Part shown: positions 6,865-22,592 of the stretch, piece by piece
Position numbering within the stretch: position 1 is the first letter of the stretch
Layout: each line of letters opens with the position of its first letter
Origin: Bacteriovoracaceae bacterium
GTDB taxonomy: Bacteria; Bdellovibrionota; UBA2394
DNA length: 43,573 bases
Reading direction: 5' to 3'
NCBI GenBank assembly: GCA_028287765.1
Contig: JAQBPA010000229.1
Span: 1-43,573, forward strand
The notes under the pieces: generated by a model
Database searches by the model: none
Told to the model about the DNA's origin: nothing
What the model saw: the letters and a program-made list of their open reading frames with translations, nothing else
Position numbers and translations under genes: made by a program

Positions 6865-6867
6865 AAG

Positions 6868-7614
6868 CTAACGGGCGAGATTATTGATATTAAATTTACT
6901 TCCCGAAAAATCTTTTTCTTTCGGATTAACATAGGTGATGTCGCTTATGTTCTCGGCAAATTTTGAATCGGTAATTGTCATTCGACTAATAAATTGGATT
7001 TTTTGCCCGCTAGATAAAATGGAATTTCCATATTTAAAAGTCGCCACTTTAAACGGTTCGCCTTCGAGACTTAAAAATTCTGCCTTCATCGCAAGCTTCG
7101 ATTTTTCAGAAATATAATATTTGATTCGGTCGTAAGTAACTTTTTTGTCTTTGGCTTTTAAATCCAAAATAAAAACAGGCTCACCATCGATTTTTGTTTT
7201 ACCTACAATGCTTCCTTCATAATCACGTGAGTAATGGGTGGAGGCGATATCGCCATTTGCAGCCTGACCCGAAAGCCGTTGTCGCGCCGAAATGGAGATG
7301 GGCTTTCGAAGTCCCGGTTTATAAAACCACATATCGCGATCGTTAAAGAGATAGACCTCTCCTTTATTTCGCGCTGGAGAAAGTGCTTCGATGAGGGCGT
7401 CATCACCCTTTGCCTCGATACCAAACTCCCTCTCGGTCGTGCTTCCGGCCTCGATTGTTTTGAGTTGAACTTTCCATTCAAGACCCTTCAAAAGCCCGCC
7501 TCGTGCTCGGTCAGACGCCTTCAAAAGTTCTGTCGGAGAAGTTTCTGCGGCAGTTATGATTCCAGTCCATAAAAACGCGATAGCCGAAAACGCTTTAAAA
7601 TTATTCATTTTCAT
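6868..7614 (-). CDS. LolA-like periplasmic lipid/lipoprotein carrier (outer membrane lipoprotein-sorting family)
   Basis: The 248-residue protein has a signal peptide (MKMNNFKAFSAIAFLW, cleavage near TAA). A single long domain follows, resembling the COG2834-type outer membrane lipoprotein-sorting proteins. Typical features are an N-terminal helix (TELLKASDRARGG), a run of antiparallel strands, and DMWFYKPGLRKPISIS followed by TKIDGEPVFILDLKAK. The ribosome site GGAG lies six bases before ATG 7614. Such proteins shuttle hydrophobic cargo across the periplasm and are commonly encoded with LolCDE/MacB-like ABC exporters; a matching ATPase and two permeases lie at 19211-22592 in the same cluster. 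It is transcribed divergently from the phosphopantetheinyl transferase gene across an 85-base gap. Confidence 0.8.
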   Translation of the reverse strand: MKMNNFKAFSAIAFLWTGIITAAETSPTELLKASDRARGGLLKGLEWKVQLKTIEAGSTTEREFGIEAKGDDALIEALSPARNKGEVYLFNDRDMWFYKPGLRKPISISARQRLSGQAANGDIASTHYSRDYEGSIVGKTKIDGEPVFILDLKAKDKKVTYDRIKYYISEKSKLAMKAEFLSLEGEPFKVATFKYGNSILSSGQKIQFISRMTITDSKFAENISDITYVNPKEKDFSGSKFNINNLAR

Positions 7615-7699
7615 TCATTTCTCCGTTTTTAAAATGATTCTTCCAGCGATATGTTATTTAACACCATTGCCCTCAAATCTGCTATGTTCGGCGCACCCT

Positions 7700-8461
7700 A
7701 TGAGCGCGGTAGCCTCTTTTATTCCTTCTCACTCTTCTTGGCTCGATCGCCTTTCGCAAGAAAAAGTTCATATTTATAGAAGCAAATTTGACGATCTCTC
7801 CGAAGGACTTCTCGAGTACCTTTCACCCTCCGAAAAAATGAGAGCCGTATCAAGTCGGTCCTTTTCGAAAACTCAAAGAGAATTTGGACTGGGTCGCGGA
7901 TGGTTAAGACATCTTCTTTCCCGATATTCAAATATTCCTGCTGCGGAGCTGCGTTTGATTTTTGGAGAGAAGGGAAAGCCAGAGCTCTTTTGTAATCCTG
8001 CGCATCTTTCGTTTAATATTTCACACTCCGGCGACGAAATTTGCGCCATCATCTCTCAAAATTTAGAGGTGGGAATTGATCTTGAAGAGCTAAGCGAAAA
8101 AAAATGGAGCCCAAATCTGGCCGCCGAAATTTTATCGGAGAACGAGATCAGAGAATTCAACACATTGAATGAAAAAGAAAAAATGCGATCCTTTTTTTAT
8201 ATCTGGACGCAAAAGGAAGCTTATTTGAAAGCCATCGGAAGGGGTCTCTCGATTGCGCCGAACACGATCGAGGTGACAGTGAATCCACTTCGTTTGCCGC
8301 AACTCATCAAGAGCCTGTCGGCAGATGAGCCGAAAGAGTGGCAAATGTTTTCTCTCTTCGATTTGAAAGAATTTTACTGCATTGCAGCCGTTCGAACCTC
8401 TTCGAATCAGTTAGAGGCACCGAAAGTTATTCATTGGAAGGCAGACTCATGTCTAGATTAA
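7700..8461 (+). CDS. Sfp-type 4'-phosphopantetheinyl transferase
   Basis: This enzyme transfers phosphopantetheine from CoA to the active serine of carrier proteins, here most likely ACP1 and ACP2 of the neighbouring megasynthase. With ATG 7700 the product is 253 residues, the normal Sfp size. The family motifs are in order: GKPEL (92-96), FNISHS (105-110), VGIDLEE (124-130, Mg-binding Asp127 and Glu129) and WTQKEAYLKAIGRGL (169-183, with Lys172 and Glu173). An in-frame ATG at 7556 would run into the divergent LolA-like gene and add about 48 residues with no family resemblance, so I reject it. The next gene starts 13 bases before this one ends. Confidence 0.93.
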   Translation: MSAVASFIPSHSSWLDRLSQEKVHIYRSKFDDLSEGLLEYLSPSEKMRAVSSRSFSKTQREFGLGRGWLRHLLSRYSNIPAAELRLIFGEKGKPELFCNPAHLSFNISHSGDEICAIISQNLEVGIDLEELSEKKWSPNLAAEILSENEIREFNTLNEKEKMRSFFYIWTQKEAYLKAIGRGLSIAPNTIEVTVNPLRLPQLIKSLSADEPKEWQMFSLFDLKEFYCIAAVRTSSNQLEAPKVIHWKADSCLD

Positions 8462-10086
8462 AAAAAATTTCCAAAGGAGATTTTTTTGAATTTTTGGAAA
8501 ATCTCTCGAAGACTTATAAAAATAATATTGCACTTTCATGTCATCAGTCGAGCGAATGGAAGCTGATTTCTTTTCGTGACCTTCATGAGCAAGTTCTAAA
8601 GACAGCTTCTCGCCTTCAGATGGCAGGCCTTAAAAAGGGCGAGCGTGTCGTTCTGCTCGGAGAGTCTTCGATCGAATGGGTGATTCATTTTTTTGCCGTG
8701 CTTTTGTCTGGCGGCATTGCGATTCCACTTGATATCAAACTTGCGGATACCGAGATGGCGAATATTTTATCGCATTCTGAACCGAGTCTTCTTTTGGCAT
8801 CACTTAAATTTCGTGAGCTCGCAAGAAATTTGCGAACTGTCCCGAAACGTGCGAGCAAAGTTTTAATTTTAAATGACGGACTTTCTGATTCTTTGATTCC
8901 TAGTCTCCCATTTAATCGAGTGAAAGTTTCTCCAGAAGATCCGGTCGTCATTTGTTATACGTCCGGCACCTCGGGATCTCCCAAGGGCGTGATGGTTCCA
9001 CTTCGCACTTTTTTATTTGAGGCGGATGCCATGGCTAATATCAGTCGCGACATTAGCACAAAGGATGTGATGCTTTCGGTTCTTCCACTCAATCATTTGT
9101 TTGGGCTTGGCAGCGGACTTCTTTTTTCGCTCCGCTGTGGAATGGAATTTTGTATGGCCCATGATCTAAGCCCGGATGCGATTGTTTTTTGTTTTAAATC
9201 TCGTCGCGTCACTCATTTTCAAGTCGTTCCGCTTTTTTTGAAACTGATGATGCGTGAAATCCAGCGAAAGTCGCATGAGCGAATGGGTGAACTTAAATTC
9301 CGCTCCATTCTGAAATCAGCGAAGCTTCTAAGATTTAATACGTTAAAAAAAATGGCATTCAAAAAAATTCATGAACCCTTTGGTGGAACGCTGAAACGTT
9401 TTGTGTGCGGCGGCTCGGAACTTGATCCTCAGATTTTTGATTTTTTCTCGGCCATCGGCACGCCTATTTATAACGGCTATGGTCTTACGGAGACCGGCCC
9501 TGTTATTGCGACGAATGCTCCCAAACGGAATCGCCGAGGCTCTGTTGGCCTGCCGCTTCCCGGCGTCAAAGTGAAAATAGCAAACGGCGAAATTATAACC
9601 AAGGGTCCTCATCTCATGCTCGGCTATTACAGAAATTCGGAGCTCAGTCGTGAATCCATGGATGACAAGGGATGGTTTTATACGGGAGATATGGGCTATC
9701 TCGACAAAAAGGGATTTTTATATCTGAACGGTCGTAAAAAAAATCTTGTCGTTTTAAGTAACGGAAAAAAAATTCATCCCGAAGAAGTGGAATCTGCACT
9801 CTCGAAAACTTCCTCCATTAAAGAAATTTGTGTGGTGGGTCTTCCCTCGTCTTCTGAACTCGGGGAAAAAATTGTAGCCATCGTCATTCCTGCTGAGAAT
9901 TCTTCCGAATCGGACGTACGAGCAGAGATCGCGAGACTTTCAAATGACCTTGCGACCTATAAACGTCCGAGTGAGATTATTATTCGTCGCGAATCTTTTC
10001 CAGTTACAGCATCCATGAAAATTAAACGGCATCTGGTCAAAGATGAACTTCTTCAAACAAGTCTTGGAGCACGTAAAGGTGCATAA
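8449..10086 (+). CDS. Fatty acyl-CoA/acyl-AMP ligase (class I adenylate-forming enzyme)
   Basis: The 545-residue enzyme activates a carboxylic acid as acyl-adenylate. Motifs: P-loop YTSGTSGSPKG (170-180), YGLTETGP (344-351), YTGDMGYLDKKGFLYLNGRK (from 411) and the C-terminal catalytic Lys524 in ASMKIKR. I chose ATG 8449 because it overlaps the transferase stop by 13 bases; the longer frame from 8338 would lie inside that gene. In mycosubtilin/iturin synthases an acyl ligase domain is fused to the megasynthase. Here the megasynthase starts directly with an ACP, so this stand-alone ligase is the natural loader of ACP1. Whether it makes acyl-CoA or passes acyl-AMP straight to the ACP cannot be decided by eye. 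Confidence 0.9.
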   Translation: MSRLKKISKGDFFEFLENLSKTYKNNIALSCHQSSEWKLISFRDLHEQVLKTASRLQMAGLKKGERVVLLGESSIEWVIHFFAVLLSGGIAIPLDIKLADTEMANILSHSEPSLLLASLKFRELARNLRTVPKRASKVLILNDGLSDSLIPSLPFNRVKVSPEDPVVICYTSGTSGSPKGVMVPLRTFLFEADAMANISRDISTKDVMLSVLPLNHLFGLGSGLLFSLRCGMEFCMAHDLSPDAIVFCFKSRRVTHFQVVPLFLKLMMREIQRKSHERMGELKFRSILKSAKLLRFNTLKKMAFKKIHEPFGGTLKRFVCGGSELDPQIFDFFSAIGTPIYNGYGLTETGPVIATNAPKRNRRGSVGLPLPGVKVKIANGEIITKGPHLMLGYYRNSELSRESMDDKGWFYTGDMGYLDKKGFLYLNGRKKNLVVLSNGKKIHPEEVESALSKTSSIKEICVVGLPSSSELGEKIVAIVIPAENSSESDVRAEIARLSNDLATYKRPSEIIIRRESFPVTASMKIKRHLVKDELLQTSLGARKGA

Positions 10087-11137
10087 ACTGAAATTTTACT
10101 TCTTCCTTTTTTTGATCGTCATTGGCGTTTATACCGTGAACCTTTTAGTAGATGCGGGAGTCTTCACGAAGCTTCATCCCCATTTTAAAGGACAATGTGT
10201 GTCCTATAATGCGATCGCAGGAGCTGAGGATATGGAGTTCTCGAAGAGCCGTCAGACACTCTTTATTTCGAGCGATTTTCGCCCCGAGAGCGAAGGGGAT
10301 TCGACTCCGAACGGTGAGCTTTATATTTGGACGGCTAATGAAATTTCTCGAGGTGACTCGCCGCCCCATAAATCATCCTGGGGAGCGCCATTTTCTTTTC
10401 ATCCTCATGGACTTGGCCTTTTGGATGGTCCGGAGGGACCACGCCTTTGGGTTGTGAATCATCGAACCGCCGAAGAGACGAGCATTGAAGTCTTTGATTT
10501 TATCAAAGGTCAACTCGTCCATGTGACAAGCATTTTTGATCCGACGCTCACCAATGCAAATGATATCGCACCGGTCGACCGCGAAACTTTTTATGTGACC
10601 CTTGATCATCGCGGGAAGTCTAATTTCCAGAAAAAAATCGAAGACTATTTAAGATTAGGTCTCGGGAAGGTCATTTTCTTCGATGGAAAAAAATTTGAAG
10701 CGAAGGCTTCTGGAATACAGTTTGCGAACGGAATTCAACTCACAAAAGACAGGCTTAAACTTTTTGTGGCGTCGATGACGTCCAAATTTATTTTGATTTA
10801 TCGACGTCATCCCATGACGAATGATCTGGAGTTCATCGAGAAGAAAGAGCTCCCAAGTGCTCCCGATAATTTGACATTGGATGATACAGAAGAGAATTTA
10901 TGGATCGGAGCTCATCCTAAATTACTCGCTCTTGCAAAACAAATGCACCACCATCAAATCCATGCGCCAGCGCAAGTGCTTCGAATGAATCTCAAAAATA
11001 ACTCTCTCATTGAAGAAATATTTCTCGATGACGGAAAGCAAATTTCTTCAACGAGTGTTGCCGTGAAGATCGGAAAAAATCTCATTCTTGGAAGTATTTT
11101 TGGCGACAATATTCTTAAATGCCAGCCGGTGGAATAA
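10043..11137 (+). CDS. Membrane-anchored paraoxonase (PON)-family lactonase/arylesterase
   Basis: The 364-residue protein is a six-bladed propeller of the paraoxonase family. By alignment to human PON1 from memory, the calcium ligands are all present: Glu62-Asp63 (GAEDMEF), Asn173-Asp174 (NANDIAP), Asn229 (FANGIQ) and Asp275-Asn276 (PDNLTLD). The catalytic histidine pair matches His122 (HPHGLGL) and His140 (VVNH), and the structural disulfide matches Cys52 and Cys360. Residues 15-36 form an uncleaved hydrophobic anchor, placing the propeller in the periplasm. PONs hydrolyse or form lactones and aryl esters. The gene overlaps the ligase by 44 bases and overlaps the convergent megasynthase end by 23. 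Role inferred: final lactone/ester processing or self-protection. Confidence 0.88.
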   Translation: MNFFKQVLEHVKVHKLKFYFFLFLIVIGVYTVNLLVDAGVFTKLHPHFKGQCVSYNAIAGAEDMEFSKSRQTLFISSDFRPESEGDSTPNGELYIWTANEISRGDSPPHKSSWGAPFSFHPHGLGLLDGPEGPRLWVVNHRTAEETSIEVFDFIKGQLVHVTSIFDPTLTNANDIAPVDRETFYVTLDHRGKSNFQKKIEDYLRLGLGKVIFFDGKKFEAKASGIQFANGIQLTKDRLKLFVASMTSKFILIYRRHPMTNDLEFIEKKELPSAPDNLTLDDTEENLWIGAHPKLLALAKQMHHHQIHAPAQVLRMNLKNNSLIEEIFLDDGKQISSTSVAVKIGKNLILGSIFGDNILKCQPVE

Positions 11138-14100
11138 TCGATTTTAAGGCGTCTTCCAGAATTTTGGAATAACGATTGGCCCAGACAATTATTTCTTCTG
11201 CTTTAAGTTCATGTGTTTGAAAATCAATTTCGAGATGATAAAAATATTCGAGATCTGTGAGATTGAAACTCAAATCAAATTCAGCAGCCGCAATCGGGTA
11301 TGCGTACATAAAAAGACTGACATCATTAAAGTCGGGAAGTTCAGCAAGAGGCTCCACATTAAAGCTGACGTTAAAAAGTGGAGCATCCAATTTTTCTTTT
11401 AGCTTCTCATAAGGGTGAGACATATTTTGATAGGCCTCAATGAGTTCTGCCTTTACGCGTTTGGTTTGATCCACGAAGGATTCATTTTCTTTTGTCGTAA
11501 ATTGAATCGGAACTAAATTCGCACAATTTCCAATCATTCCTTCTGCGCCGTCTAAATCACGATTGGCTGCAGGAACTCCAATCGTAAGAGTTGAAGATTC
11601 ACTCATTTCTTTTAAGAGCGAGTAGAACGAACTCAAAAGACACATCATCGGTGTCATCTTCCATTCTTTGGCAGCAGCCTTTAACTTTTTATAAATGGCG
11701 TTATCAATCGGAAAGGTGAGTCGCTCAGCCTTGAGAGAAGGAGTTTTCTCATTTTGTGTTTTTGTATTCTTCCACTTTAGAAATTCTGGAGGCTTTTTAA
11801 ATTTTTCTTCCCAATGTTTTTTTGCATTTTCTAGACGACTCACCGGCCCAAAATGATTGGGCGTTTCTAAGAATTTAAAGAATTGCATTTGAGGAACAAA
11901 ATCGAAAGGCTCACTCATATCGATCGCGCGGTAGGCCTTGGCGAGATCTTCGATAAAGCGAGAAATCGCCCAGCCGTCGAGAGCGATATGATGACAAACC
12001 ATCGAGAAGACAGCCGTCTCTTCGGCCACATCATAGAGTCGAAATCGCACAGGCGGTTCTTTCTCGAGAAGAAAAGGCCGCTTACCTTCTTCGAGAAGTC
12101 GAGCGTCAAGCTCCTGCCAGGGAGCTTCGAACGAAGTTAAATCCTCAGAGTCAAAGGGAAGAGATGTCGTTGGATCAAGCCACTGAAGTCCTTTTGTTAA
12201 ATCCACTCGCAGACGAAAGACATCCGAGAGGCTGAGCATTTTAAAAAGTGCTTTTTCGAGAACCGTCTTCTTAAGAGGACCCTTCATTTTTACTGAAAGA
12301 CAAATATGACTCGCCGCTTCGCCGTCAGCGCTTAGAAGGCTCAAGTCTTGAAATCGTTTTTGAGCCGATAGAAATCCTTTCGTATCCGGAGTGTGCTCTT
12401 TCGCCAGATCTTTCGGTTTTAAAAATCCAACATCGATGAGTTCATGCGTGACGTCTTTGACCGTTTGTATAAAAAAGCGAATGTCTTCAGCCGTATGCGC
12501 AGTGGAGAGAAACAGATTTCGACCTTCCCAAATATAAACCCCGCGCAGATTCATATTGTAAAAGAAGAGATCTAAATTGGCAGCCGCCTTAAATCGAAAG
12601 AGCGAGCCAAAATTATTTACTGTAATTTCAAGATTAACGGACTGAAAAAATTCTGTGAGTTCAGTCGCGAGCCCGTGTGTGCGGCGATTGAGATTTTCGA
12701 GAATCTCTTTTCCTTCTGTACTGACTTTTTCAAGAACAGCATTGGCCGAGGCCATTGCGAGGGGATGCTTACTAAAGGTTCCTGCAAAGAACGTCATTTC
12801 AGATTGAGGATAGGTCGTATCTCCGAAGTTCCAGTCACCTCCGTCAATCGAATCCATAAATTTAGAGCTTCCGCCGACGGCCCCGATGGGAAGACCTCCA
12901 CCCAAAATTTTTCCGTAGGACGCAATATCGGCTTTGACTCCGAAATGTTCTTGAGCTCCGCCCGGACAAATACGAAAGCCCGTAATCACTTCGTCAAAAA
13001 TAAGTGCGGTTCCCGATTTTTCCGTAATCGCGCGGACTTCTTTTAAGAAAGCTTGTGGTTGATGCTCGGGGAACCGACTCTGAACTGGTTCTACCAGTAC
13101 AGCTGCGAGAAGATGCGCATTTTGACGAATAATTTCGAGAGACTCTGGAGCTCCGTAGTCTAAAACCAAAACGTCTCGAACAAGACCCTGCGTTACGCCA
13201 GAAGCAACAGGCGTGGTCACTCCGTCAGCAGAGGTTCTCGCGAGTACACCGTCGAAGTGTCCGTGATAGGAACCATCAAAGAGAACAATCTTTTCTCTCT
13301 TCGTCGCTGCTCGCGCAAGGCGAATTGCCGTCATCACGGCCTCAGTACCCGAATTGCAAAATGCAATTCGATCCATGCCCACGAGTTTGGCCATCTTTTC
13401 GGCAACCTGTCCTGCAAGGTAGGACTGCGGTCCGAGACACATTCCGAGTTCGGATTGCTTCATGATCGCCGTATGAATGAAATCGGGATTATGACCGAAG
13501 AGATTTACTCCAAATCCCATCGTAAAATCGACGTAGGAATTTCCGTCGAAATCTTCGAAGCGGCTTCCTTTCGCTTTGTAACAAATGATCGGATAGACGA
13601 CTTCTTTTAAATTGGGACGAAATCCCGCACTCGTTCGATTGTCAGCGAGGAGCTTTCTAAACTTTTGCGTATGCTCTTTTGTTTTAGGCGTACGCGCGTT
13701 GAATTTTTTGATGAGGTCCTCGAGGTAGCGAGCTTTTTGTTCACTCTCTAATTCGCTTCGCTCACGGTCCGCAAAGTTTTTAAAATTCCCGAGAACGCCG
13801 CGTTTTTCGGTCGGCGCGTGTATTCGGATATCGAGTATTCCACCACTGTCGAGAGCAGCTGCTTGGAATTTTTGCGCAGATTCTCGACTGATATGATCGG
13901 CAATTTTTCGAAGGGTCGAGAGATCCTGAAAAATATCGGAGATCGAAATGCTCACATGATATTTATCTTTGATCGCTTGAATGGCATTCAAAAGAAGGAG
14001 GGAGTCTGCACCTAATTCGATGAGCGCTTCATCCACATTTAAATTTTCACTACTAATCTGAAGAAGTTTTCCAACAATTGAAACCAGCTCCGTGAGAATT

Positions 14101-17054
14101 TCTTCGTGAGAATATACTTGATGGAGCTCGCTCGGCGGCAGTTTAGCCGTGATGCTTCGAACGGGATTACTCCAATATTTTGTTTTTTGAAAGACGGTAA
14201 ACGGTAAAGCATCGGACTGCGTTTTATTTTTAGAAGGAGAGGGTTTCCAAAAACCCCAAACCCCAAGTTCAGAAAGTCCCTGATAAAAACTTTCAACCGC
14301 ATCTTGATTACGGGAGAGCAATTTAAATGAACGCGTTTTCTCAAGATTTTCTTTTGAAATGCAGGCCTGCGCCATCGTGATAAGAGTCGGATGCGCTCCG
14401 ATTTCTAAAAAGCCGTTACAGCCAAGAGCTTCCAAGGTTTGCATGCCTTTCAAAAATTGTGTGGGTTCGCGGAGATGCTTCGCCCAGTAGGCAGTCGAAT
14501 AAACATCGGAAGTTGCAATCACGTCTCCCGTAAGACTTGAAACAAGGGGAATCGAAGTATTTGCATACTGAATTTTTTGAATCGCCTTTTCAAAAGGCTG
14601 GAGTACGGAATCCATTTGTCTCGAATGAAAGGCTCGATCCGTTCGGAGTTCTGAGACGCGGATATTTTTATTTTTGAGATCATCTTTTAATTTCTGAATT
14701 TCAGAGACATTTCCGGAAAGAATAAAAAGTTCCGGGCCATTGACGGCGGCGATTTCAAGTGAGAGTTTTTCTTTGTTGAGAGTCGCCTCAATCACGTCTC
14801 GCTTTTCGAAAACAGCGAGCATGGCACCCGCAGAAGTTTCCTGCATGAGTTTTCCGCGCATCGTGACCATGAGGACCGCTTCTTCAAGCTTGATTGCCCC
14901 GCTCACGGTAGCGGCAATACATTCTCCAAGAGAGTGACCGAAGACAGCCGCTGGTACGATTCCAAAATCTTCTTTTAAGAGCTGCGCGAGCGAATAACCG
15001 ACAGAAAAAATGGCAGCCTGTCCGTAATCTGTTTGCGAAAGTGCCTTCGCCTCACTCTCTCCACTTTGACTTACGATCGTATAAAGATCGTTCGGATAAT
15101 ATCGATCAAAAAGTTCGCAGCAATCTTCAAAAGCTTTTCGAAAGGATGGAAACTGCGAATATAGTCCCATCGCCATTCCTGAATATTGCGATCCTTGGCC
15201 TGTAAATAAAAAAGCGAGTTTACGCTGCGGCTTTGTTATCGCTCGACCGTGAGCCCATCCATTTGATGGCTCCCTTAATAAAAAGGATCCGATTCGCTCT
15301 GAAAGTTCTATTCGAGTTTTTCCGTGAACCATCATTCTCTCTGGCAGATCGAGTCGTTGTTCGATGGAAGCGGCCGCCAATTTTAAAAGTTCCGAATCTT
15401 TGATTTCAAGAAGAGATTTTTTTAGAGTCTCAGCACTTTTCCTTAAGCTCTCTTCGTCAGTTGCGGAAAAGGCGAGTAGATTGGAAGGCGTTTTGAGAGT
15501 TTTATCTTGAGCCGTCGAATTTTGATATTCCTCTAAAATTAAATGCGCATTCGAGCCGCCAAAGCCAAAGGAGCTAATGCCAGCCATGCGACTTTTTCCG
15601 TCCCTTTTATTCCAAGCGCTGCCTTCACTTTCAACTTTTAAATTTGTACAGCCCTCTCCAATTTTGGAATTGAGAGATTTGAAATGAAGAGTTTTAGGAA
15701 TCCATTCATGCTTTGCTGCGAGAACGGCCTTGATCACTCCAGCGACTCCCGCTGCCGCTTCGAGATGACCAATATTTGATTTCACGGATCCTACTGCACA
15801 GGGAAGATTTTTTGGCCGATCGCCAAGAACTCGGCTGAGAGATAAATATTCGATTGGATCGCCAAGCGCCGTTCCTGTGCCATGAGCTTCGATATAGGTA
15901 ATTTCTTCTGCAGCCACCTTCGCATCCGCCAAGGCGTGCCGAATCACTCTCTCTTGTGCGACTCCGTTAGGAGCAGTAAGTCCGCTGCTCCTACCGTCTT
16001 GGTTGATCGCAGAACCGCGAATCACAGCGTGAATTCGGTCGCCGTCACGAACAGCATTCGAAAGTTTTTTCAGTACCAAAACTCCTGCGCCCTCGCTTCT
16101 GACGTAACCATTCGCACCTTCTGAAAAACTTTTGCAGCGACCTTCGGGAGATAAAAATCCTCCCTGCGAAAAGGCAGCCGAGATCACGGGGTCGAGAAGA
16201 ATATTTACTCCACCCGCAAGCGCGAGTTCTGAATCTCCATTTTTAAGACTTCGGCAAGCGAGATGAATGGCGGTAAGTGCGGATGAGCAAGCGGTGTCGA
16301 CACTCACACTCGGGCCGGTAAAATTAAAAAAGTATGAAAGTCGATTGGGAGAAATACTGTGGGCGTTTCCGGTGACGTCGTAAACATTAACGGCATCGGA
16401 ATTTTTAACGCCGAGAATCAGATAGTCACTATTACTAATCCCGACAAAAACTCCCGTTCGGCTTTGATCGAGTTGACTGGGAGAATACCCCGCATCTTCA
16501 ATCGCTTCCCAACTGCACTGAAGAAGAAGCCTCTGCTGCGGATCCATTTTTTCTGCTTCGATTTTTGAAAGTCGAAAAGCTTCGGCATCAAATTCTTCAA
16601 TGCCCTGAAGAAATCCACCCCATTTTGGAGATAGATCGGAGTTCCAGCGGTCTGCGGGAATTTCACTAATCGCATCCACGCCGTTTTTAAGAAGATTCCA
16701 AAATTCATCGACTGAGCGCGCTCCTGGAAATCGGCAGCTCATCCCAATGATGGCGATAGGTTCCGAACTTACTTCTGCCCTCGCAAATGTTTCGGCCGCC
16801 TCGTTTGGATTCGCGATATGCTCGGCGAGCTGACGAATCGTCGGGTAGTCAAAAATAATCGTCGGCGCCAGTTTGAGAGTAAGCTTTGAATTCAGATTGG
16901 AAACAATATGAACCGCTTGAAGAGATTCAATTCCCATCTCTGCAAAAGGCTGATCAATATCCATCTCTGTCGTCGGACGACCAGTGACCACCGAAATCTG
17001 AGTGATGATTTCAGAAATAAAGGTGGGAACCGAATCCGACAGAGTTCTGCTCAC
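11115..17054 (-). CDS. Hybrid PKS megasynthase ACP-KS-AT-ACP-aminotransferase-condensation
   Basis: With GTG 17054 the protein is 1979 residues. The start is chosen because TAAGG sits seven bases upstream and the preceding gene stops at 17062; an ATG at 17114 would overlap that gene by 53 bases. Domains in order: ACP1 about 15-80 (Ser44 in GIESL); ketosynthase 98-510 (Cys256 in DTACSS, His391 in EAHGTG, His430 in SNIGH); acyltransferase 613-910 (Ser708 in GHSLGE; AFHS motif points to malonyl-CoA); ACP2 985-1055 (Ser1018 in GADSL); class III PLP aminotransferase 1145-1545 (Lys1382 in SYGKILGGG); condensation domain 1558-1975 (SAQKR, HHIALDG at 1688-1694). No KR, DH or ER is present, so the beta-keto group would go straight to beta-amino, as in MycA/ItuA. 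No adenylation, PCP or TE domain follows the C domain. Confidence 0.93.
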   Translation of the reverse strand: MSRTLSDSVPTFISEIITQISVVTGRPTTEMDIDQPFAEMGIESLQAVHIVSNLNSKLTLKLAPTIIFDYPTIRQLAEHIANPNEAAETFARAEVSSEPIAIIGMSCRFPGARSVDEFWNLLKNGVDAISEIPADRWNSDLSPKWGGFLQGIEEFDAEAFRLSKIEAEKMDPQQRLLLQCSWEAIEDAGYSPSQLDQSRTGVFVGISNSDYLILGVKNSDAVNVYDVTGNAHSISPNRLSYFFNFTGPSVSVDTACSSALTAIHLACRSLKNGDSELALAGGVNILLDPVISAAFSQGGFLSPEGRCKSFSEGANGYVRSEGAGVLVLKKLSNAVRDGDRIHAVIRGSAINQDGRSSGLTAPNGVAQERVIRHALADAKVAAEEITYIEAHGTGTALGDPIEYLSLSRVLGDRPKNLPCAVGSVKSNIGHLEAAAGVAGVIKAVLAAKHEWIPKTLHFKSLNSKIGEGCTNLKVESEGSAWNKRDGKSRMAGISSFGFGGSNAHLILEEYQNSTAQDKTLKTPSNLLAFSATDEESLRKSAETLKKSLLEIKDSELLKLAAASIEQRLDLPERMMVHGKTRIELSERIGSFLLREPSNGWAHGRAITKPQRKLAFLFTGQGSQYSGMAMGLYSQFPSFRKAFEDCCELFDRYYPNDLYTIVSQSGESEAKALSQTDYGQAAIFSVGYSLAQLLKEDFGIVPAAVFGHSLGECIAATVSGAIKLEEAVLMVTMRGKLMQETSAGAMLAVFEKRDVIEATLNKEKLSLEIAAVNGPELFILSGNVSEIQKLKDDLKNKNIRVSELRTDRAFHSRQMDSVLQPFEKAIQKIQYANTSIPLVSSLTGDVIATSDVYSTAYWAKHLREPTQFLKGMQTLEALGCNGFLEIGAHPTLITMAQACISKENLEKTRSFKLLSRNQDAVESFYQGLSELGVWGFWKPSPSKNKTQSDALPFTVFQKTKYWSNPVRSITAKLPPSELHQVYSHEEILTELVSIVGKLLQISSENLNVDEALIELGADSLLLLNAIQAIKDKYHVSISISDIFQDLSTLRKIADHISRESAQKFQAAALDSGGILDIRIHAPTEKRGVLGNFKNFADRERSELESEQKARYLEDLIKKFNARTPKTKEHTQKFRKLLADNRTSAGFRPNLKEVVYPIICYKAKGSRFEDFDGNSYVDFTMGFGVNLFGHNPDFIHTAIMKQSELGMCLGPQSYLAGQVAEKMAKLVGMDRIAFCNSGTEAVMTAIRLARAATKREKIVLFDGSYHGHFDGVLARTSADGVTTPVASGVTQGLVRDVLVLDYGAPESLEIIRQNAHLLAAVLVEPVQSRFPEHQPQAFLKEVRAITEKSGTALIFDEVITGFRICPGGAQEHFGVKADIASYGKILGGGLPIGAVGGSSKFMDSIDGGDWNFGDTTYPQSEMTFFAGTFSKHPLAMASANAVLEKVSTEGKEILENLNRRTHGLATELTEFFQSVNLEITVNNFGSLFRFKAAANLDLFFYNMNLRGVYIWEGRNLFLSTAHTAEDIRFFIQTVKDVTHELIDVGFLKPKDLAKEHTPDTKGFLSAQKRFQDLSLLSADGEAASHICLSVKMKGPLKKTVLEKALFKMLSLSDVFRLRVDLTKGLQWLDPTTSLPFDSEDLTSFEAPWQELDARLLEEGKRPFLLEKEPPVRFRLYDVAEETAVFSMVCHHIALDGWAISRFIEDLAKAYRAIDMSEPFDFVPQMQFFKFLETPNHFGPVSRLENAKKHWEEKFKKPPEFLKWKNTKTQNEKTPSLKAERLTFPIDNAIYKKLKAAAKEWKMTPMMCLLSSFYSLLKEMSESSTLTIGVPAANRDLDGAEGMIGNCANLVPIQFTTKENESFVDQTKRVKAELIEAYQNMSHPYEKLKEKLDAPLFNVSFNVEPLAELPDFNDVSLFMYAYPIAAAEFDLSFNLTDLEYFYHLEIDFQTHELKAEEIIVWANRYSKILEDALKSIIPPAGI

Positions 17055-17061
17055 GATGGCC

Positions 17062-17913
17062 TTACTTCTTCTTAAGGGTTCGTGCGAGATGCATCGTGTT
17101 GTCGGCAAAATCATTCCAGAGATCGAGCCAAATCGTGACTCGCTTCTTCACTTCATCATATCTCTCCGGAACAATCGCTTGCCTAAAAATATACCAAGAA
17201 TCTTCGGAGTGATCGTCGTCAATCGACTCACCGTGCTCATCGTCTACGTGAATCGCGTGATAACCTTCAGAGGTATCGATATCGGTCGAAAGCGAAACAC
17301 TTTTTGCCCACGGCCCCGCGTAGAGAGTAAACACAGTTTCTGCACAGGCGAGTACGGCCGTCAAAAGAACGTAGTCATTATAATGATCCGTGAATGTTTT
17401 TCGTGCAGCTTTGGATGCAGGCGATGGTTTGTAATTTAAAATTTCTGAAGCGCTGGATCCTAAACTCTCAAGCGTTTTTACAAACTGAATATAGTGAGCA
17501 AGAAAAGGTGTCCCCCAGTAGTCGCCCGTCACTTCATCGTTTGGAAAAAAACCAAGCTCATCAAGAAGATTGAGTTGCAAAAGAAATCGTGACGTCACTT
17601 TTCCGGCTGGCCCGAGTCGTGGCTCAAGATCTGCCGACTGCGCCATCGCATGAATGAGGGAGTCGGTAAAAATTTGTGCAAAGCCGTGAGCAAATTCTAA
17701 GTGAATAGCTTTGGTGACTTCGGGGTTTAGTTTTTCGGTATTGAGAACTCCTTTAACCGGATGGCGAGACATTCGATGGGTCGCGATCAAAGCTTTGAGT
17801 TCATCGACATAGGCGACGTTTTTGGCCCAGAGATCGGGAGGAACAGATTGTTCAATTGCGGCACGACAGACTGCTCGAGGTTTGGATTTATCGAAACCAG
17901 TGGTTTTAGCCAT
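17062..17913 (-). CDS. Putative heme-oxygenase-like diiron oxidase/oxygenase
   Basis: The 283-residue cytoplasmic protein appears almost all-helical, with no signal peptide. It has the look of the iron-containing redox enzyme superfamily (UndA, CADD, SznF-type HDO fold): HLEFAH at 71-76, CAETVF with Glu192, and a very His/Asp/Glu-rich stretch at 218-238 (YHAIHVDDEH then IDDDHSED), which resembles the H-x-x-x-D-x-x-H metal-binding helix of that family. The exact ligand set is not certain by eye. It sits 7 bases upstream of the megasynthase start, so it is co-translated with it and probably acts on the carrier-bound or released beta-amino acyl chain (desaturation, N-oxygenation or oxidative cleavage are family precedents). 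Family call is inference, not a clear motif match. Confidence 0.6.
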   Translation of the reverse strand: MAKTTGFDKSKPRAVCRAAIEQSVPPDLWAKNVAYVDELKALIATHRMSRHPVKGVLNTEKLNPEVTKAIHLEFAHGFAQIFTDSLIHAMAQSADLEPRLGPAGKVTSRFLLQLNLLDELGFFPNDEVTGDYWGTPFLAHYIQFVKTLESLGSSASEILNYKPSPASKAARKTFTDHYNDYVLLTAVLACAETVFTLYAGPWAKSVSLSTDIDTSEGYHAIHVDDEHGESIDDDHSEDSWYIFRQAIVPERYDEVKKRVTIWLDLWNDFADNTMHLARTLKKK

Positions 17914-17979: not shown

Positions 17980-18735
17980 TTAGACAAAGAAATTCTGCGT
18001 GAGAGACAAAAAAACAGATTTGGCATGTTCGAAGTGATAAAAATGGCCGCCGGGAAAAATTTGGACATCGTGAAGAATCGTGCCAAAGTCGGCCCATTGT
18101 TTGAGTTCTTCGGGTTTCACAGAAGAATCATCTGCTCCGCCAAACACAAGAAGCGGAACAGAGAGAGGTTTTATATCCTCCGTTTCATAAGCTTCCATGA
18201 GAGCGATATCGGCTCTCAAAATTTTTAAAAAATAAGTCCGTGCCGCAGAATCTCTTAAAATTTCTGGCGCAACGGGTGCAAATTGGCTGAGCTTTTCGAT
18301 GAGTTCAGTCTCTGGAAGATGTGCAATTTTTTCTCGCTCTCGAAGATTTTTTTGCGAAGGTGGACGAAAGGAAGAAAGCGCGAGGCCGCGAATTTTTTCT
18401 CGAAAAGGCGAGTGCAGCGCTCGATAGAGTTCAAAAGCGATGAGCGACCCCATGCTATGACCAAAAAAAACGGAGGGAGTATCTCCCTCGGATTCGAAGG
18501 CTGCTTTTAAATCTTCAATAAGACTTTTGAAATTCATCAAAAGTTTTTCACGATGACGAGCGCCGTGCCCCGGAAGTTCAACCACAATAAGTTCCACATT
18601 TTCGGGAGCTAAGTCTCGCCACTTTGAATAAGACAGGGAACTTCCACCGGCGTGCGGAAAAACAAACAATCTCATCTGAGCATGGGGGCGCGGTTTAAGT
18701 CGGTAGAACCAAGGAGACTTCATGGACGATAGCAT
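17980..18735 (-). CDS. Type II thioesterase (GrsT/RifR-like alpha/beta hydrolase)
   Basis: Type II thioesterases remove wrong or stalled acyl groups from carrier proteins and sometimes release product. The 251 residues are the usual size. Motifs: LFVFPHAGGSSLSY at 23-36, nucleophile Ser94 in FFGHSMGS, acid near Asp202-Asp203, and catalytic His231 in PGGHFYHFEH. It is the first gene of the minus-strand unit thioesterase - diiron oxidase - megasynthase. An internal ATG at 18723 (MKSPWFYR) is an alternative start; neither has a good ribosome site. Because the megasynthase has no TE domain, this protein is also the only obvious in-cluster hydrolase for chain release. Confidence 0.9.
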   Translation of the reverse strand: MLSSMKSPWFYRLKPRPHAQMRLFVFPHAGGSSLSYSKWRDLAPENVELIVVELPGHGARHREKLLMNFKSLIEDLKAAFESEGDTPSVFFGHSMGSLIAFELYRALHSPFREKIRGLALSSFRPPSQKNLREREKIAHLPETELIEKLSQFAPVAPEILRDSAARTYFLKILRADIALMEAYETEDIKPLSVPLLVFGGADDSSVKPEELKQWADFGTILHDVQIFPGGHFYHFEHAKSVFLSLTQNFFV

Positions 18736-18803: not shown

Positions 18804-19226
18804 ATGACGCATTATGGCGAGCTCAATATCACAACCGGCTGGATCTTTATTTCTCTCGGAATCACGACTGGCTCGATCATCGGGCTTTGGTCGTTTGATG
18901 GACCGTTTCCGACTCCTAAGGGACATACAAATTATACAGATCTTCCCCGCCGCTTAAACCGTCTCGCCCATATCGCTTGTTTTATGTTGCCGCTCATTTC
19001 TATCGTTTACGGCCAATACCTTGATCAGGCGCTGCTGACAGACGCTCAAAAATTGATCGGCGCTTACAGTATGGTCACTTGTATGATTGGTGTTCCGCTC
19101 TTTCTTTTTCTTGCTTCGTTTTATTTGCCTTTCAAATATTTGGAAGTGATCCCGGTAACTGCTGGTTGCGTCGCGCTCTATTTGATGTCGTGGGCACATT
19201 TAAAGATTTTATGTTCATTCAACTGA
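18804..19226 (+). CDS. Four-helix integral membrane protein, function unknown
   Basis: The 140-residue protein has about four hydrophobic segments (near 10-30, 55-72, 85-108 and 113-132) separated by a short loop containing TPKGHTNYTDLPRRLNRLAH. Start ATG 18804 is preceded by AAGGGAG. I do not recognise the family. It overlaps the ABC ATPase start by 16 bases and leads the exporter unit, so an accessory role in the transporter is plausible but is inferred only from position. Confidence 0.75.
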   Translation: MTHYGELNITTGWIFISLGITTGSIIGLWSFDGPFPTPKGHTNYTDLPRRLNRLAHIACFMLPLISIVYGQYLDQALLTDAQKLIGAYSMVTCMIGVPLFLFLASFYLPFKYLEVIPVTAGCVALYLMSWAHLKILCSFN

Positions 19227-19891
19227 AAGAAGTTCGAAAGATTTACGCTCTCGGCGATACCAAAGTGAATGCGCTGAACGGAATTGATCTCACACTCGGT
19301 CGTGGAGAATTTACAGCGCTCGTTGGAACGTCAGGTTCTGGAAAGACCACCCTTCTCAATATGATCGGTTGTATCGATCGACCCACTTCAGGCGATGTCA
19401 TCATTGATGAGGTAAACGTCGTTAAATTAAATGAGGTTGAGCTCAGTGATTTTAGAAATAAAAAACTTGGATTTATTTTTCAGACTTTTAATCTTCTTCC
19501 GGTTTTAAATATTTTCGAAAATATAGAACTTCCACTTCTCATTCAGCGAAATCTTTCGGCTTCAGAGCGAAAAGATCTCGTGATGCAGGCGATTGAGGAT
19601 GTCGAGCTTACAAAATATATTCATCATATCCCGGACCGCCTAAGTGGTGGGCAGCGGCAGAGAGTCGCCATTGCGCGCGCACTTGTCACGAACCCAAGTC
19701 TTATTCTCGCTGACGAGCCCACGGCCAATTTGGATTCCGAGACTGCACATAAAATTTTAGATTTGATGCAATCTCTCAATGAAAAGAGAAAAGTCACTTT
19801 TCTCTTTTCGACTCACGATGAAAAGCTGATGAGCCGAGTGAAGCGAATGATAAGAATTGTAGACGGACATTTCGCTTCGGATCACGCGTGA
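19211..19891 (+). CDS. LolD/MacB-type ABC transporter ATP-binding protein
   Basis: The 226-residue ATPase powers the two permeases that follow. Features: Walker A GTSGSGKT (39-46), Q-loop IFQTFNLLP, signature LSGGQRQR, Walker B LILADEPT and the H-loop in FSTHDE. ATG 19211 is chosen since it gives the usual LolD N-terminus ([12 protein letters not shown]); the longer frame from 19079 lies within the preceding membrane-protein gene. It overlaps that gene by 16 bases and the next by 4 (GTGA). LolD/MacB-type ATPases drive extrusion of lipids, lipoproteins or amphiphiles from the inner membrane rather than import. Confidence 0.95.
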
Positions 19892-21270
19892 AAAAACCAG
19901 ATTTTCATTTCTGGAAGCTCGCCTGGCGAAATCTGTGTCGACATTGGAAGAGAAATCTCTCCACCGGCCTAGCCATTGGCGCTGGATTTGCTGGGATTGT
20001 GCTCCTTGGCGGCTACCTTCTTCGAATGGAATTTTATTTAATCACTCAAAGTGTTTATTTAAATCATGTCGGGCATGTGGCGATTTATAAACCGAATGGC
20101 CTCGATCGGCATTTATCGGATCCTGCTAAATTTAATCTCACGCTCGAAGATCAGTCGAAAATTATGACGGGCATTTCAGAGCTTCGAGAAAAACCGGAAT
20201 TCATCAGTAAATCTCTTGAAGGGCAGGGACTCGTCTCGAATGGCTGTCAGGTTTTTCCTTTTTTAGCTCTGGCTGTGGATTCGAAAATGGAAAGCCAAAT
20301 TCGCAATCATCCAGAAGTTCTCGCCAGAGTTCCAGAGCTTGCTCAGCTCAAAATGGGGCGCGGCTTTTGGGAGACGCCGGAGCTGCCAGATGGAATTTTA
20401 ATTTCAAAAAGACTCGCCGCTCGTTTAAAAAAGCCACTCGTCTCAGGAGGTGCAGGAGAAGTGCCGTCAGCAATGGACGCTCTCATCACCGATTGCGAAA
20501 ATCCTGAATCCGAAAAAATAATTTCCAGTCACTCGGGGCTTCAGCTGATCGGCAGCACTTTCGAGAAAGGCATAGCGGCTACAGATGCGAGAGTGTCGGG
20601 CCATTTCACTACGGGTCTCACACTCTCCGAAGATACCGCCATGCTTATGCCGCTCGCTCTCGCTCAAAAATTTTTTGATACCGATTCGGTGACATTCATT
20701 TCGATTTACCTCCAAAAAGGGTCAAGAAGCTTAGCTACAGACGTCTCGGGCGAACTTCAAAATATTTTTTTGAAGCACGGCTGGGATTTTGACGTCTATC
20801 CTTTTTACGATGAGCGGGTGAGTCCGTATTACGTGGGTGCCATGACGTTTGTTTATGTGATGGCTCTCTTTTTTCTTATTCTCGTCTGTGGTGTGGCCGC
20901 TTTATCGATTTTAAATTCACTACAAATCTCATTTATGGAACGCCGGACAGAAGTGGGAACGCTTCGAGCGATTGGCTACCGACCCGCACAAATTGTCGGC
21001 CTGTTCGCGAGAGAGATCGCTCTTCTTACAGGCATCTCGCTCATCGGCGGGGGAATTGCCGCCGCCTTGATAGCCTTCGCCATTAATGCGGCTGAACTGC
21101 GCTTTTACGTTCCTGGCCTTGCGGGAAGTTTGCATTTTTTACTCAAACCCGGATTTGTTTTTAGTTTGATCGTGGGTGCCATCTTTTTTTCGGTTTGTAT
21201 GGGCGCCGTTTTTGTCACGGGAAGACGTTGGTCTAAAATTAAGGTTGTGGATCTGCTGGAGAATAAATGA
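19888..21270 (+). CDS. FtsX/MacB-like ABC permease, first subunit
   Basis: The 460-residue protein starts with GTG in a GTGA overlap with the ATPase. It has the MacB/LolC-type layout: one N-terminal transmembrane helix (about 24-45, after the basic WRNLCRHWKRNL), a large periplasmic domain (about 50-300) and three C-terminal helices (about 315-340, 365-390 and 420-445) containing SFMERRTEVGTLRAIGY, the FtsX family cytoplasmic coupling segment. It pairs with the next permease, whose N-terminus is similar (RNISRHWKRSLA), so a LolC/LolE-like heterodimer is likely. Inferred cargo is the lipidic product of the adjacent synthase. Confidence 0.9.
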   Translation: MKKPDFHFWKLAWRNLCRHWKRNLSTGLAIGAGFAGIVLLGGYLLRMEFYLITQSVYLNHVGHVAIYKPNGLDRHLSDPAKFNLTLEDQSKIMTGISELREKPEFISKSLEGQGLVSNGCQVFPFLALAVDSKMESQIRNHPEVLARVPELAQLKMGRGFWETPELPDGILISKRLAARLKKPLVSGGAGEVPSAMDALITDCENPESEKIISSHSGLQLIGSTFEKGIAATDARVSGHFTTGLTLSEDTAMLMPLALAQKFFDTDSVTFISIYLQKGSRSLATDVSGELQNIFLKHGWDFDVYPFYDERVSPYYVGAMTFVYVMALFFLILVCGVAALSILNSLQISFMERRTEVGTLRAIGYRPAQIVGLFAREIALLTGISLIGGGIAAALIAFAINAAELRFYVPGLAGSLHFLLKPGFVFSLIVGAIFFSVCMGAVFVTGRRWSKIKVVDLLENK

Positions 21271-22592
21271 AAGCCGATCTCCAAATGTTTTCACGAGTGG
21301 CTCTTCGAAATATTTCTCGTCATTGGAAGAGAAGCCTCGCGGCCATTTTATCTCTCGCTTCTGGGTTCGCTGCCATCAATCTTTTTGAAGGCTATATCGC
21401 GGACGTCGAACATGTTTTTTCTGAGACTTATTCCAAGAGATTAATGTACGGAGATATTTTGATTCAGCGAAAGGAGACACTCACCGATGGTCTTGAAGAG
21501 GGCGAGCGACTCATCCGTCAAGAAGATCAACACCAGCTCGAAGAAATTCTTGAGAAATCTAAAATGGTCAATAATTCTGTTCGATTTTTAAATATTACTG
21601 GCCTGGTGTCGAATGGATCCGCGACGAGTGTGTTTCGGGGTCTCGGATATGATGTCGACGCCGGTCTTAAAATGCGAGAGCCAAATTGGAGTTGGAATGC
21701 ACTAGCGGGAATTCCACTCGATCAAGGCGTACGAAATCCGCAAAATATTTTGATTGGTCAGGGCCTGGGAAGAATTCTTGATTGTAGTCCGACATCGCGA
21801 CCTAAAGAGATGACTTTTTTAAACGGCTATTCGAGGGAATCTCGTCCCATCGTTTGTAAAACTTCCGAACTTGAACTCAATGTGACGAGTGGCACGGGCC
21901 AGATGAATGCGACCAATGTGCATGTACACGGAATGATCGACGCCGTTTATCGAGAGTTTGATGCGCGCTATATTGCCATGTCGCTTGAAAAAGCGCAGGC
22001 ACTTCTCAATACGTCGGGCGTATCGCTTTATAGTGTTCGGCTGAAAGATTCTTCCGATGCAAAAAAATTCATTTCTTATTTGAGCGAAGAGTTCACTCGA
22101 AAAAATTTATCGCTTAAGGCCTTTAAGTGGCAGAACCATTCGTTCGGGGGGCTCTATGTTCAGAGTATTGATTTCTTAAACGTCTTTCGGGATTTTACGC
22201 TGATTGTCGTTTTAATTATTATTTCACTTTCTGTTCTGAGTCAGTTGATGCGCCTCGTTCAGGAGAGAACACGTGAAATCGGGACTCTTCGTTGTCTCGG
22301 ATATATGCCACATCAAATCCGTTCACTTTTTCTAATCGAAGCATTCTTTCTTTCTATTTTTGGAAGTGCTCTCGGTGCTCTGCTTACGGTAGTTCTCGCT
22401 CCCGCTATGAACTCGCTAGGGATTCTTTATAAGGTAGGGATTCTTTCCGAAAAAATCCCTTTTCGAATTAGTATCGTGGGAGTGAACTTCGGCATGAGCG
22501 CTTTCGTTCTTACGGCAATTGCCATGGGTGCCGCCACGATTGCCATTTTAAGAGCACTGCGAAAGAGTATTCCCGACGCTTTAATGCATTAA
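21267..22592 (+). CDS. FtsX/MacB-like ABC permease, second subunit
   Basis: The 441-residue partner permease begins in an ATGA overlap with the first. It shows the same topology: an N-terminal helix (about 18-38), a periplasmic domain, and C-terminal helices with LVQERTREIGTLRCLGY as the coupling segment near 335-351. The two subunits are recognisably homologous at both ends but diverge in the periplasmic part, as expected for a heterodimeric Lol-type complex. With the LolA-like carrier and barrel at 5608-7614 it would make a full inner- to outer-membrane route. Confidence 0.9.
   Translation: MKADLQMFSRVALRNISRHWKRSLAAILSLASGFAAINLFEGYIADVEHVFSETYSKRLMYGDILIQRKETLTDGLEEGERLIRQEDQHQLEEILEKSKMVNNSVRFLNITGLVSNGSATSVFRGLGYDVDAGLKMREPNWSWNALAGIPLDQGVRNPQNILIGQGLGRILDCSPTSRPKEMTFLNGYSRESRPIVCKTSELELNVTSGTGQMNATNVHVHGMIDAVYREFDARYIAMSLEKAQALLNTSGVSLYSVRLKDSSDAKKFISYLSEEFTRKNLSLKAFKWQNHSFGGLYVQSIDFLNVFRDFTLIVVLIIISLSVLSQLMRLVQERTREIGTLRCLGYMPHQIRSLFLIEAFFLSIFGSALGALLTVVLAPAMNSLGILYKVGILSEKIPFRISIVGVNFGMSAFVLTAIAMGAATIAILRALRKSIPDALMH

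Follow-up and report, generated by a model that had tools for sequence, protein, structure and literature searches.

A heme-oxygenase-like oxygenase encoded beside an aminotransferase-containing polyketide synthase, with a beta-amino acyl chain as its probable substrate

In a 43,573-nucleotide contig of a Bacteriovoracaceae bacterium (phylum Bdellovibrionota; JAQBPA010000229.1, here called the window), a gene for an oxygenase related to the heme-oxygenase-like diiron enzymes (HDOs) stands directly ahead of an AMT-type polyketide synthase (PKS), a synthase with a class-III aminotransferase domain (AMT). Comparison with related loci suggests an HDO that oxidises a beta-amino product, a beta-amino acyl chain being a substrate not yet described for the family. 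As judged from sequence, the AMT-HDO pairing is the constant element of these loci, whereas the release domain may be C or TE and neither the loading part nor the membrane partner is constant. Because the pair stays constant while the release domain changes, a beta-amino acyl chain is the likely substrate, and we consider it probable that the HDO acts on the beta-amino product of its partner synthase, whatever the reaction. Since AMT and HDO alone are retained, the beta-amine, ACP-bound or already released, would be the shared chemical handle. The occurrence of an HDO is predicted by a single AMT group, also in Azospirillum sp. B4, Pseudomonas japonica DSM 22348 and Variovorax sp. OV700, and this rule could serve genome mining for oxidised beta-amino lipids. 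As the genomes themselves supply the likely substrate, a new HDO reaction becomes directly testable.

The oxygenase gene (P0001, 283 aa) occupies positions 17062..17913 of the minus strand and was recognised from its open reading frame, its relatives, its modelled fold and the conservation of its candidate ligands. It starts with ATG and has an AAGGAG ribosome-binding site immediately 5′; the plus strand across 17062..17913 is interrupted by stops. The stop codon ends at 17062 and the probable GTG start of the megasynthase lies at 17054, a spacing of exactly 7 bases. The original prediction of a 283-residue protein encoded seven bases ahead of the megasynthase was thus borne out, on the minus strand and with the GTG start; the ATG start given by the ORF tool (17114) would overlap the HDO gene. 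Since seven other genomes of the phylum encode a homologue with 47–55% identity, sequence comparison indicates that this is a real gene, beyond a chance ORF. The residues singled out beforehand, namely Glu192, HLEFAH (residues 71–76) and a His/Asp-rich stretch at 218–238 (YHAIHVDDEHGESIDDDHSED), are all present in the translation. The host genome is a 2.84-Mb assembly, 76% complete.

The megasynthase (11115..17054, minus strand, with the GTG start inferred) comprises 1,979 residues, ordered ACP-KS-AT-ACP-AMT-C according to Pfam. Its AMT domain (12531..13595, minus; PF00202, E 4.5e-54) belongs to the HDO-linked AMT group and is a class-III aminotransferase placed between an ACP and the release/condensation domain, as in AMT-type PKS modules. 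The C-terminal condensation domain (11142..12368, minus) is followed by neither an A nor a PCP domain, and Pfam detected no KR, DH, ER, A or TE domain in the megasynthase. The active-site motifs TACSS, GHSLGE, GADSL and HHIALDG are kept, the last in the condensation domain, and the aminotransferase lysine was read by eye in SYGKILGGG. A type II thioesterase gene (17980..18735, minus; PF00975) has a homologue in the clusters of the seven other phylum genomes. It is followed by P0003 (18804..19226, plus), a 140-aa protein with no family match, judged by eye to be a membrane protein and present in 8/8 HDO genomes of the phylum. On the other side of the synthase lie an AMP-forming acyl ligase (8338..10086, plus), a probable starter loader whose true start is probably further in, a 4′-phosphopantetheinyl transferase (7556..8461, plus) assigned by family match and phylum comparison, and an arylesterase/SMP-30-like protein (10043..11137, plus), which several clusters of the phylum have close to the end of the megasynthase. 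An ABC ATPase and two FtsX-like permease ORFs, named by eye, follow one another on the plus strand (19079–19891, 19888–21270 and 21267–22592; 19079..22592 overall) and have homologues in G227 and at locus L030. A LolA-like outer-membrane lipoprotein-sorting protein (6868..7614, minus; PF17131, E 1.1e-30) and an ORF without family match flank the cluster (5608–7614), again with homologues in G227.

A search of 368 genomes of the phylum gave matches to the HDO in 9, of which 8, including the window, were accepted. The remaining match, in G364 (41% identity over residues 168–208, E 0.005), was dropped; its contig carries no other window homologue. Among the nearest 39 genomes, own genome included, only the own copy was found, and a one-sequence scan of the genome collection contigs gave no match. 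A profile built from the phylum members detected 12 loci in this collection: six were the same phylum members and six were further loci, in a Silvanigrellales MAG (44% identity), Azospirillum sp. B4 (41%), a Deltaproteobacteria MAG (40%), Pseudomonas japonica (36%), Variovorax sp. OV700 (34%) and a Ramlibacter MAG (33%). A second Ramlibacter copy came from a whole-genome search. In a sample of 249 genomes from the genus to which P. japonica belongs, its own was the only one with this HDO.

Within the phylum, the HDO gene is directly upstream of the synthase in 8/8 genomes, with gaps of −10 to 28 bases, and the order ACP-KS-AT-ACP-AMT-C could be followed through AMT and C in 7/8; the contig of the eighth (G237) ends within the synthase. 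Domain identity in the phylum is highest for AMT (59–64%), followed by KS (47–54%), AT (33–41%) and C (23–37%). In Azospirillum, the HDO lies beside a single protein that reads ligase-KS-AT-ACP-AMT, has a second ACP and enters a TE before the contig breaks off. At the loci of P. japonica, Ramlibacter and Variovorax, a protein of the order ACP-AMT-C comes first, next a small membrane protein and then the HDO; the second Ramlibacter copy adjoins KS-AT and ACP-AMT-C genes. The C domain is a weak Pfam match in P. japonica and visible in the alignment only in Variovorax. Of the 11 C domains compared, every one has the H and DG of xHxxxDG, and six show the complete HHxxxDG.

The small membrane protein of the last three loci (about 210 aa; L033:9337-9972, L034:9327-9962 and L035:9325-9957) is encoded immediately upstream of the HDO. 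An MsrQ-like match was obtained for the Ramlibacter and Variovorax proteins (E 0.0032 and 0.31) and none for that of P. japonica; for Ramlibacter a PhnE model scored better (E 0.0011). These values give only a hint of an MsrQ-like identity in Ramlibacter and Variovorax, and a role of the protein as heme-b electron donor is possible.

An AMT match was found in 34/368 phylum genomes, 7 with and 27 without HDO, and similarly in 14/250 genomes of the Variovorax family, one of them with HDO. The 27 phylum genomes without HDO belong mostly to one family (f9) and indicate that the phylum has a second type of beta-amino polyketide. As AMT-PKSs without HDO are common, the HDO appears as an add-on. In a maximum-likelihood tree, 12 HDO-linked AMTs were separated from 34 others by a split with 100/100 support, and a second AMT carried by the Variovorax genome itself fell on the non-HDO side. 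No synthase was found near the HDO at the loci of the Silvanigrellales and Deltaproteobacteria MAGs; in both genomes a different contig encodes an AMT synthase (59% and 49% identity). In the extended tree, 14/14 AMTs of HDO genomes lay on one side (100/100) and all 34 others on the opposite side. Genomes with no HDO match account for 33 of these 34 rows and the second Variovorax AMT for the other; 20 of the 27 phylum AMT genomes without HDO are in the trees (G045, G046, G047, G119, G134, G152 and G159 were left out), as G237 was, its contig ending inside the PKS. The tree was rooted at the midpoint and therefore shows a split, not strictly a clade. AMT and HDO trees agree in part: Azospirillum goes with the Deltaproteobacteria MAG in both, and P. 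japonica, Ramlibacter 1 and Variovorax are together in both. Hypergeometric values, which ignore relatedness and serve as a guide only, were 2e-7 for AMT in at least 7/8 HDO genomes and 6e-15 for P0003 in 8/8. Synteny and the AMT tree strongly support the predicted coupling to an AMT-type PKS, which proved tighter than the original prediction had supposed.

Several observations count against the oxygenase acting on the beta-amino product. Its inheritance may follow the synthase as a whole and have nothing to do with the amine, AMT-PKSs without HDO are frequent, and the AMT-linked members do not form one group in the HDO tree (3 changes), the two odd rows being the genomes with AMT on another contig. 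Homologues also occur in the absence of an AMT-PKS. In the plasmid collection, 9/72,556 records match, eight from Acinetobacter (32–39% identity, tblastn) and one partial in Moraxella. The Acinetobacter homologues (L036-L040, from plasmids and an A. baumannii chromosome) show the same ligand pattern in the five aligned and adjoin a TetR-family regulator, several with an integrase; these stand-alone homologues appear mobile. No synthase was found near them, and the one whole Acinetobacter chromosome searched had single-enzyme aminotransferases (35% at best) and no AMT-PKS. Hence the family does not need AMT. In the HDO tree, the Acinetobacter branch is apart from the synthase-linked group (100/100), and the AMT partnership may therefore be a later recruitment.

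Such homologues without a PKS, together with UndA, which takes free fatty acids (PMC13108848, in the text available), would fit an enzyme whose substrate is the free fatty-acid starter, upstream, or some unrelated small molecule, its place in the operon having other reasons. We regard this as quite improbable: across class and phylum boundaries the HDO goes with a single AMT group, despite changes in both the release domain and the membrane partner, and AMT synthases of other groups are without HDO. Action on the beta-amino product is thus retained as the preferred reading.

The fold of the oxygenase was modelled from an alignment of 13 sequences (pLDDT 90.3, pTM 0.89); a single-sequence model (pLDDT 42) was discarded. 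Foldseek returned CADD, BesC and PolF as first matches of the model. VIA-align gave Z 22.5 for both HrmI (rmsd 2.4, 220 aligned) and CADD (rmsd 2.3, 210 aligned), followed by PolF (Z 21.6, rmsd 3.4, 244 aligned), BesC (Z 20.1, rmsd 2.7, 217 aligned), FlcD (Z 19.9, rmsd 2.5, 214 aligned; also as entry 3bjd under another title) and UndA (Z 19.7, rmsd 3.2, 231 aligned). TenA and PqqC fell mostly below the HDO structures, with Z of about 16–18. The model thus has the seven-helix heme-oxygenase fold and is nearer to HDOs than to other users of this fold. With Z of about 20–22 to HDO structures, the proposed heme-oxygenase-like fold was recovered, and an unrelated fold, the outcome named beforehand as fatal to the proposal, did not appear in either structural search of the model.

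Sequence-based family searches gave a weaker signal. Pfam PF14518 (‘iron-containing redox enzyme’) matches 7/8 phylum members at E up to 1, with 1.8e-7 as the best value. The window protein itself has no match to it at this threshold, which also counts against the preferred reading, and reaches PF03070 at E 0.037. A phmmer search of the protein against PDB sequences gave no match, and a profile search of the same sequences matched only BesC (E 0.0019) and p-aminobenzoate synthase sequences (E 0.02), including CADD (E 0.044). The BesC equivalog model NF042919 scored 16.7 bits against a curated cut-off of 500. The PF03070 value and the TenA and PqqC matches would be in line with a metal-free TenA/PqqC-like protein or an otherwise non-oxidative member of the fold. 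We hold this for highly improbable in view of the better scores of HDO structures, the presence of PF14518 in most relatives and six invariant candidate ligands.

These six residues, E119, H140, E192, H222, D232 and H235, were invariant in 20/20 sequences and, by their positions, would make up a candidate 3-His/3-carboxylate set. Among 27 positions tabulated over the 20 sequences, D118, Y218, D233, D238 and W240 were likewise unchanging. In alignments to PDB sequences, H140 and E192 fall on H88 and E142 of CADD, which we take to be metal ligands, and D232/H235 fall on the DxxH pair of PDB 9pj4. Accordingly, H140, E192, D232 and H235 are predicted ligands backed by these alignments, while E119 and H222 are candidates placed by spacing and conservation. 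The first carboxylate ligand could be either E119 or E73. The latter position is Glu or Asp (Asp in three relatives) and is also a candidate for the seventh ligand of the SznF-like 3H/4C subgroup, in which an auxiliary helix supplies this ligand as a Glu. Within the phylum H71 and E73 are conserved, whereas many relatives have Y, F, N or A in place of H76. HLEFAH, put forward as a notable motif, was therefore a wrong lead and is rejected as an ExxH ligand motif. D225 was considered as an alpha-3 ligand and is less likely than D232, being T, Q or N in three relatives.

The alpha-3 region (residues 218–240, 17194..17262, minus strand) contains H222, D232 and H235 together with an extra loop. H222 and D232 are separated by 10 residues, by 9 in two relatives and by 12 in the Acinetobacter copies (counted by eye); the window HDO does not have the usual alpha-3 motif, in which the Asp comes four residues after the first His. 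In MboA, the reported ligands are E86, H89, E143, H172, D176 and H181 (PMC13185094, available part). The other intervals are close to those of MboA: 54 residues for H89-E143 and 52 for H140-E192, 29 for E143-H172 and 30 for E192-H222. Given 10 residues against the 172/176 pair of MboA, the window HDO is, by its sequence, an alpha-3 variant and not a usual HDO member; this deviation is a further point against the preferred reading. Residues 221–230 have a mean pLDDT of 63, and the model, of low confidence here, shows the extra loop interrupting the alpha-3 helix; a mobile alpha-3 is known in HDOs (PMC13108848, available text). About 20 residues separate E119 from H140 and were modelled with two short strands.

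The domains present lead us to the following tentative route. The acyl ligase would load a fatty acid onto the first ACP; KS-AT would extend it by a single malonyl unit, so that the second ACP carries a beta-keto chain, left unreduced in the absence of KR, DH and ER, and the AMT, by analogy with its family, would convert the beta-ketone to a beta-amine. The HDO would bind two metals through E119/H140/E192/H222/D232/H235, hold the amine near metal 1, activate O2 and oxidise the amine or the neighbouring carbon. The chain might be released through the C domain in the window and through the TE in Azospirillum, and the LolA-like protein with the ABC/FtsX set may carry the lipid product to the outer membrane.

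N-oxygenation, to a hydroxylamine, oxime or nitro group, is our leading reaction, held with less than even confidence. In known HDOs the substrate is held via its amine or carboxylate on Fe1, according to the available parts of three sources (PMC13108848, PMC12614342, PMC13185094). A C domain would mask the acid and leave the amine as handle, hence an N-oxygenation as in HrmI is favoured; if the acid is set free by a TE, cleavage, desaturation or ring closure of a chelated beta-amino acid would also be conceivable. The fold is silent on this choice, since HDOs for N-oxygenation, C-C cleavage and ring formation differ in Z by no more than about 3 units. Our ranking, with N-oxygenation before desaturation/cyclisation, C-C cleavage third and the remainder elsewhere, is a judgement and not a result.

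PolF is among the top structural matches and, as MboA, provides a precedent for desaturation or ring-type chemistry on amino substrates (PMC13108848, PMC13185094, both in part). The HDO might similarly desaturate the chain or close an N-heterocycle, giving an unsaturated amine or an azetidine. With no further sign of a ring, we find this somewhat unlikely. BesC, the nearest characterised sequence by profile, and UndA, which shares the fold, would instead suggest a cleavage of a C-C bond of the beta-amino chain to an alkene, enamine or ketone, with loss of the carboxyl carbon or the amine-bearing part; the Azospirillum TE could free an acid to ligate iron, as fatty acids do in UndA (PMC13108848, available text). 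However, the BesC similarity is confined to short stretches and far below the equivalog cut-off, most clusters have a C domain, so that the acid would be amide-masked, and making an amine in order to remove it would be wasteful; cleavage is in our opinion unlikely. Returning to N-oxygenation, a wider proposal, plausible to us but on balance doubtful, is that AMT and HDO form a portable two-enzyme unit that moved between phyla while release domains changed: the amine would be installed and its nitrogen then oxidised to beta-hydroxylamino, oxime, nitro or even N-N bonded lipids, by an enzyme whose alpha-3 metal helix is remodelled and whose membrane partners (P0003, MsrQ-like) differ between lineages.

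The closest known systems share some features with the window HDO and differ in others. The CADD/PabS p-aminobenzoate synthases share the fold and the aligned H140/E192/D232xxH235, but differ by a self-sacrificing Tyr chemistry, a shorter protein and, in CADD, the usual alpha-3 spacing. BesC, a 4-chloro-allylglycine synthase, likewise has an amine substrate, yet overall similarity is very low and its C-C cleavage takes place on chlorolysine. Mycosubtilin/iturin-type AMT modules are the same kind of beta-amino fatty acyl module and their C domain leads into further NRPS modules, whereas in the window the assembly line ends after the C domain and an HDO stands alongside. We know of no PKS partner for the lysine N-oxygenases HrmI/BelK, which have the same fold, HrmI with the joint top Z, and no sequence match to the window HDO in PDB searches. 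They oxidise an amine (PMC13108848, available text). Their substrate is free lysine. A fatty-acyl-type substrate, as expected for the window HDO, is used by the fatty acid decarboxylase UndA, which differs in giving no sequence match, in taking the free acids and in having no AMT synthase. The acetylenase MboA is an HDO with a 3-His/3-carboxylate set and a dedicated redox partner protein, MboB (PMC13185094, available part). Unlike the window HDO, it acts on a peptide; the window enzyme has about 20 residues between E119 and H140 and an H222-D232 link six residues longer.

A 2026 review of the HDOs counts about a dozen characterised members and names the deorphanising of the rest as key; its available text mentions neither polyketide nor beta-amino (PMC13108848). 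We found no AMT-HDO pairing in the literature searched, which covered mostly titles and abstract starts within PMC, with preprints outside PMC and most subscription papers beyond its coverage. The group is apparently a new, undescribed HDO subfamily, with a known fold and ligand set as predicted from model and alignment, an altered metal helix and a partner undescribed for any HDO within that literature.

Some minor features of the loci were also recorded. P0003 as redox partner of the HDO alone is a weakened candidate, since it also occurs in G249 and G289, where no HDO was found. In these two fragmentary genomes (L059:80-3385 and L060:1280-5129), its neighbours are an acyl ligase, a small ACP-like protein and a protein resembling, by eye, a B12-binding radical SAM enzyme; these loci are perhaps an O2-independent counterpart of the HDO pathway. 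In Ramlibacter, a PEP mutase (L034:19314-20243; PF13714, E 2.9e-56) is encoded about 8.5 kb past the HDO, and the following ORF resembles, by eye, phosphonopyruvate decarboxylase; the C domain there might take a phosphonate amine as its partner. In the Deltaproteobacteria MAG, the HDO comes after a flavoprotein with tryptophan-halogenase similarity (L031:8236-9951; PF04820, E 2.3e-11).
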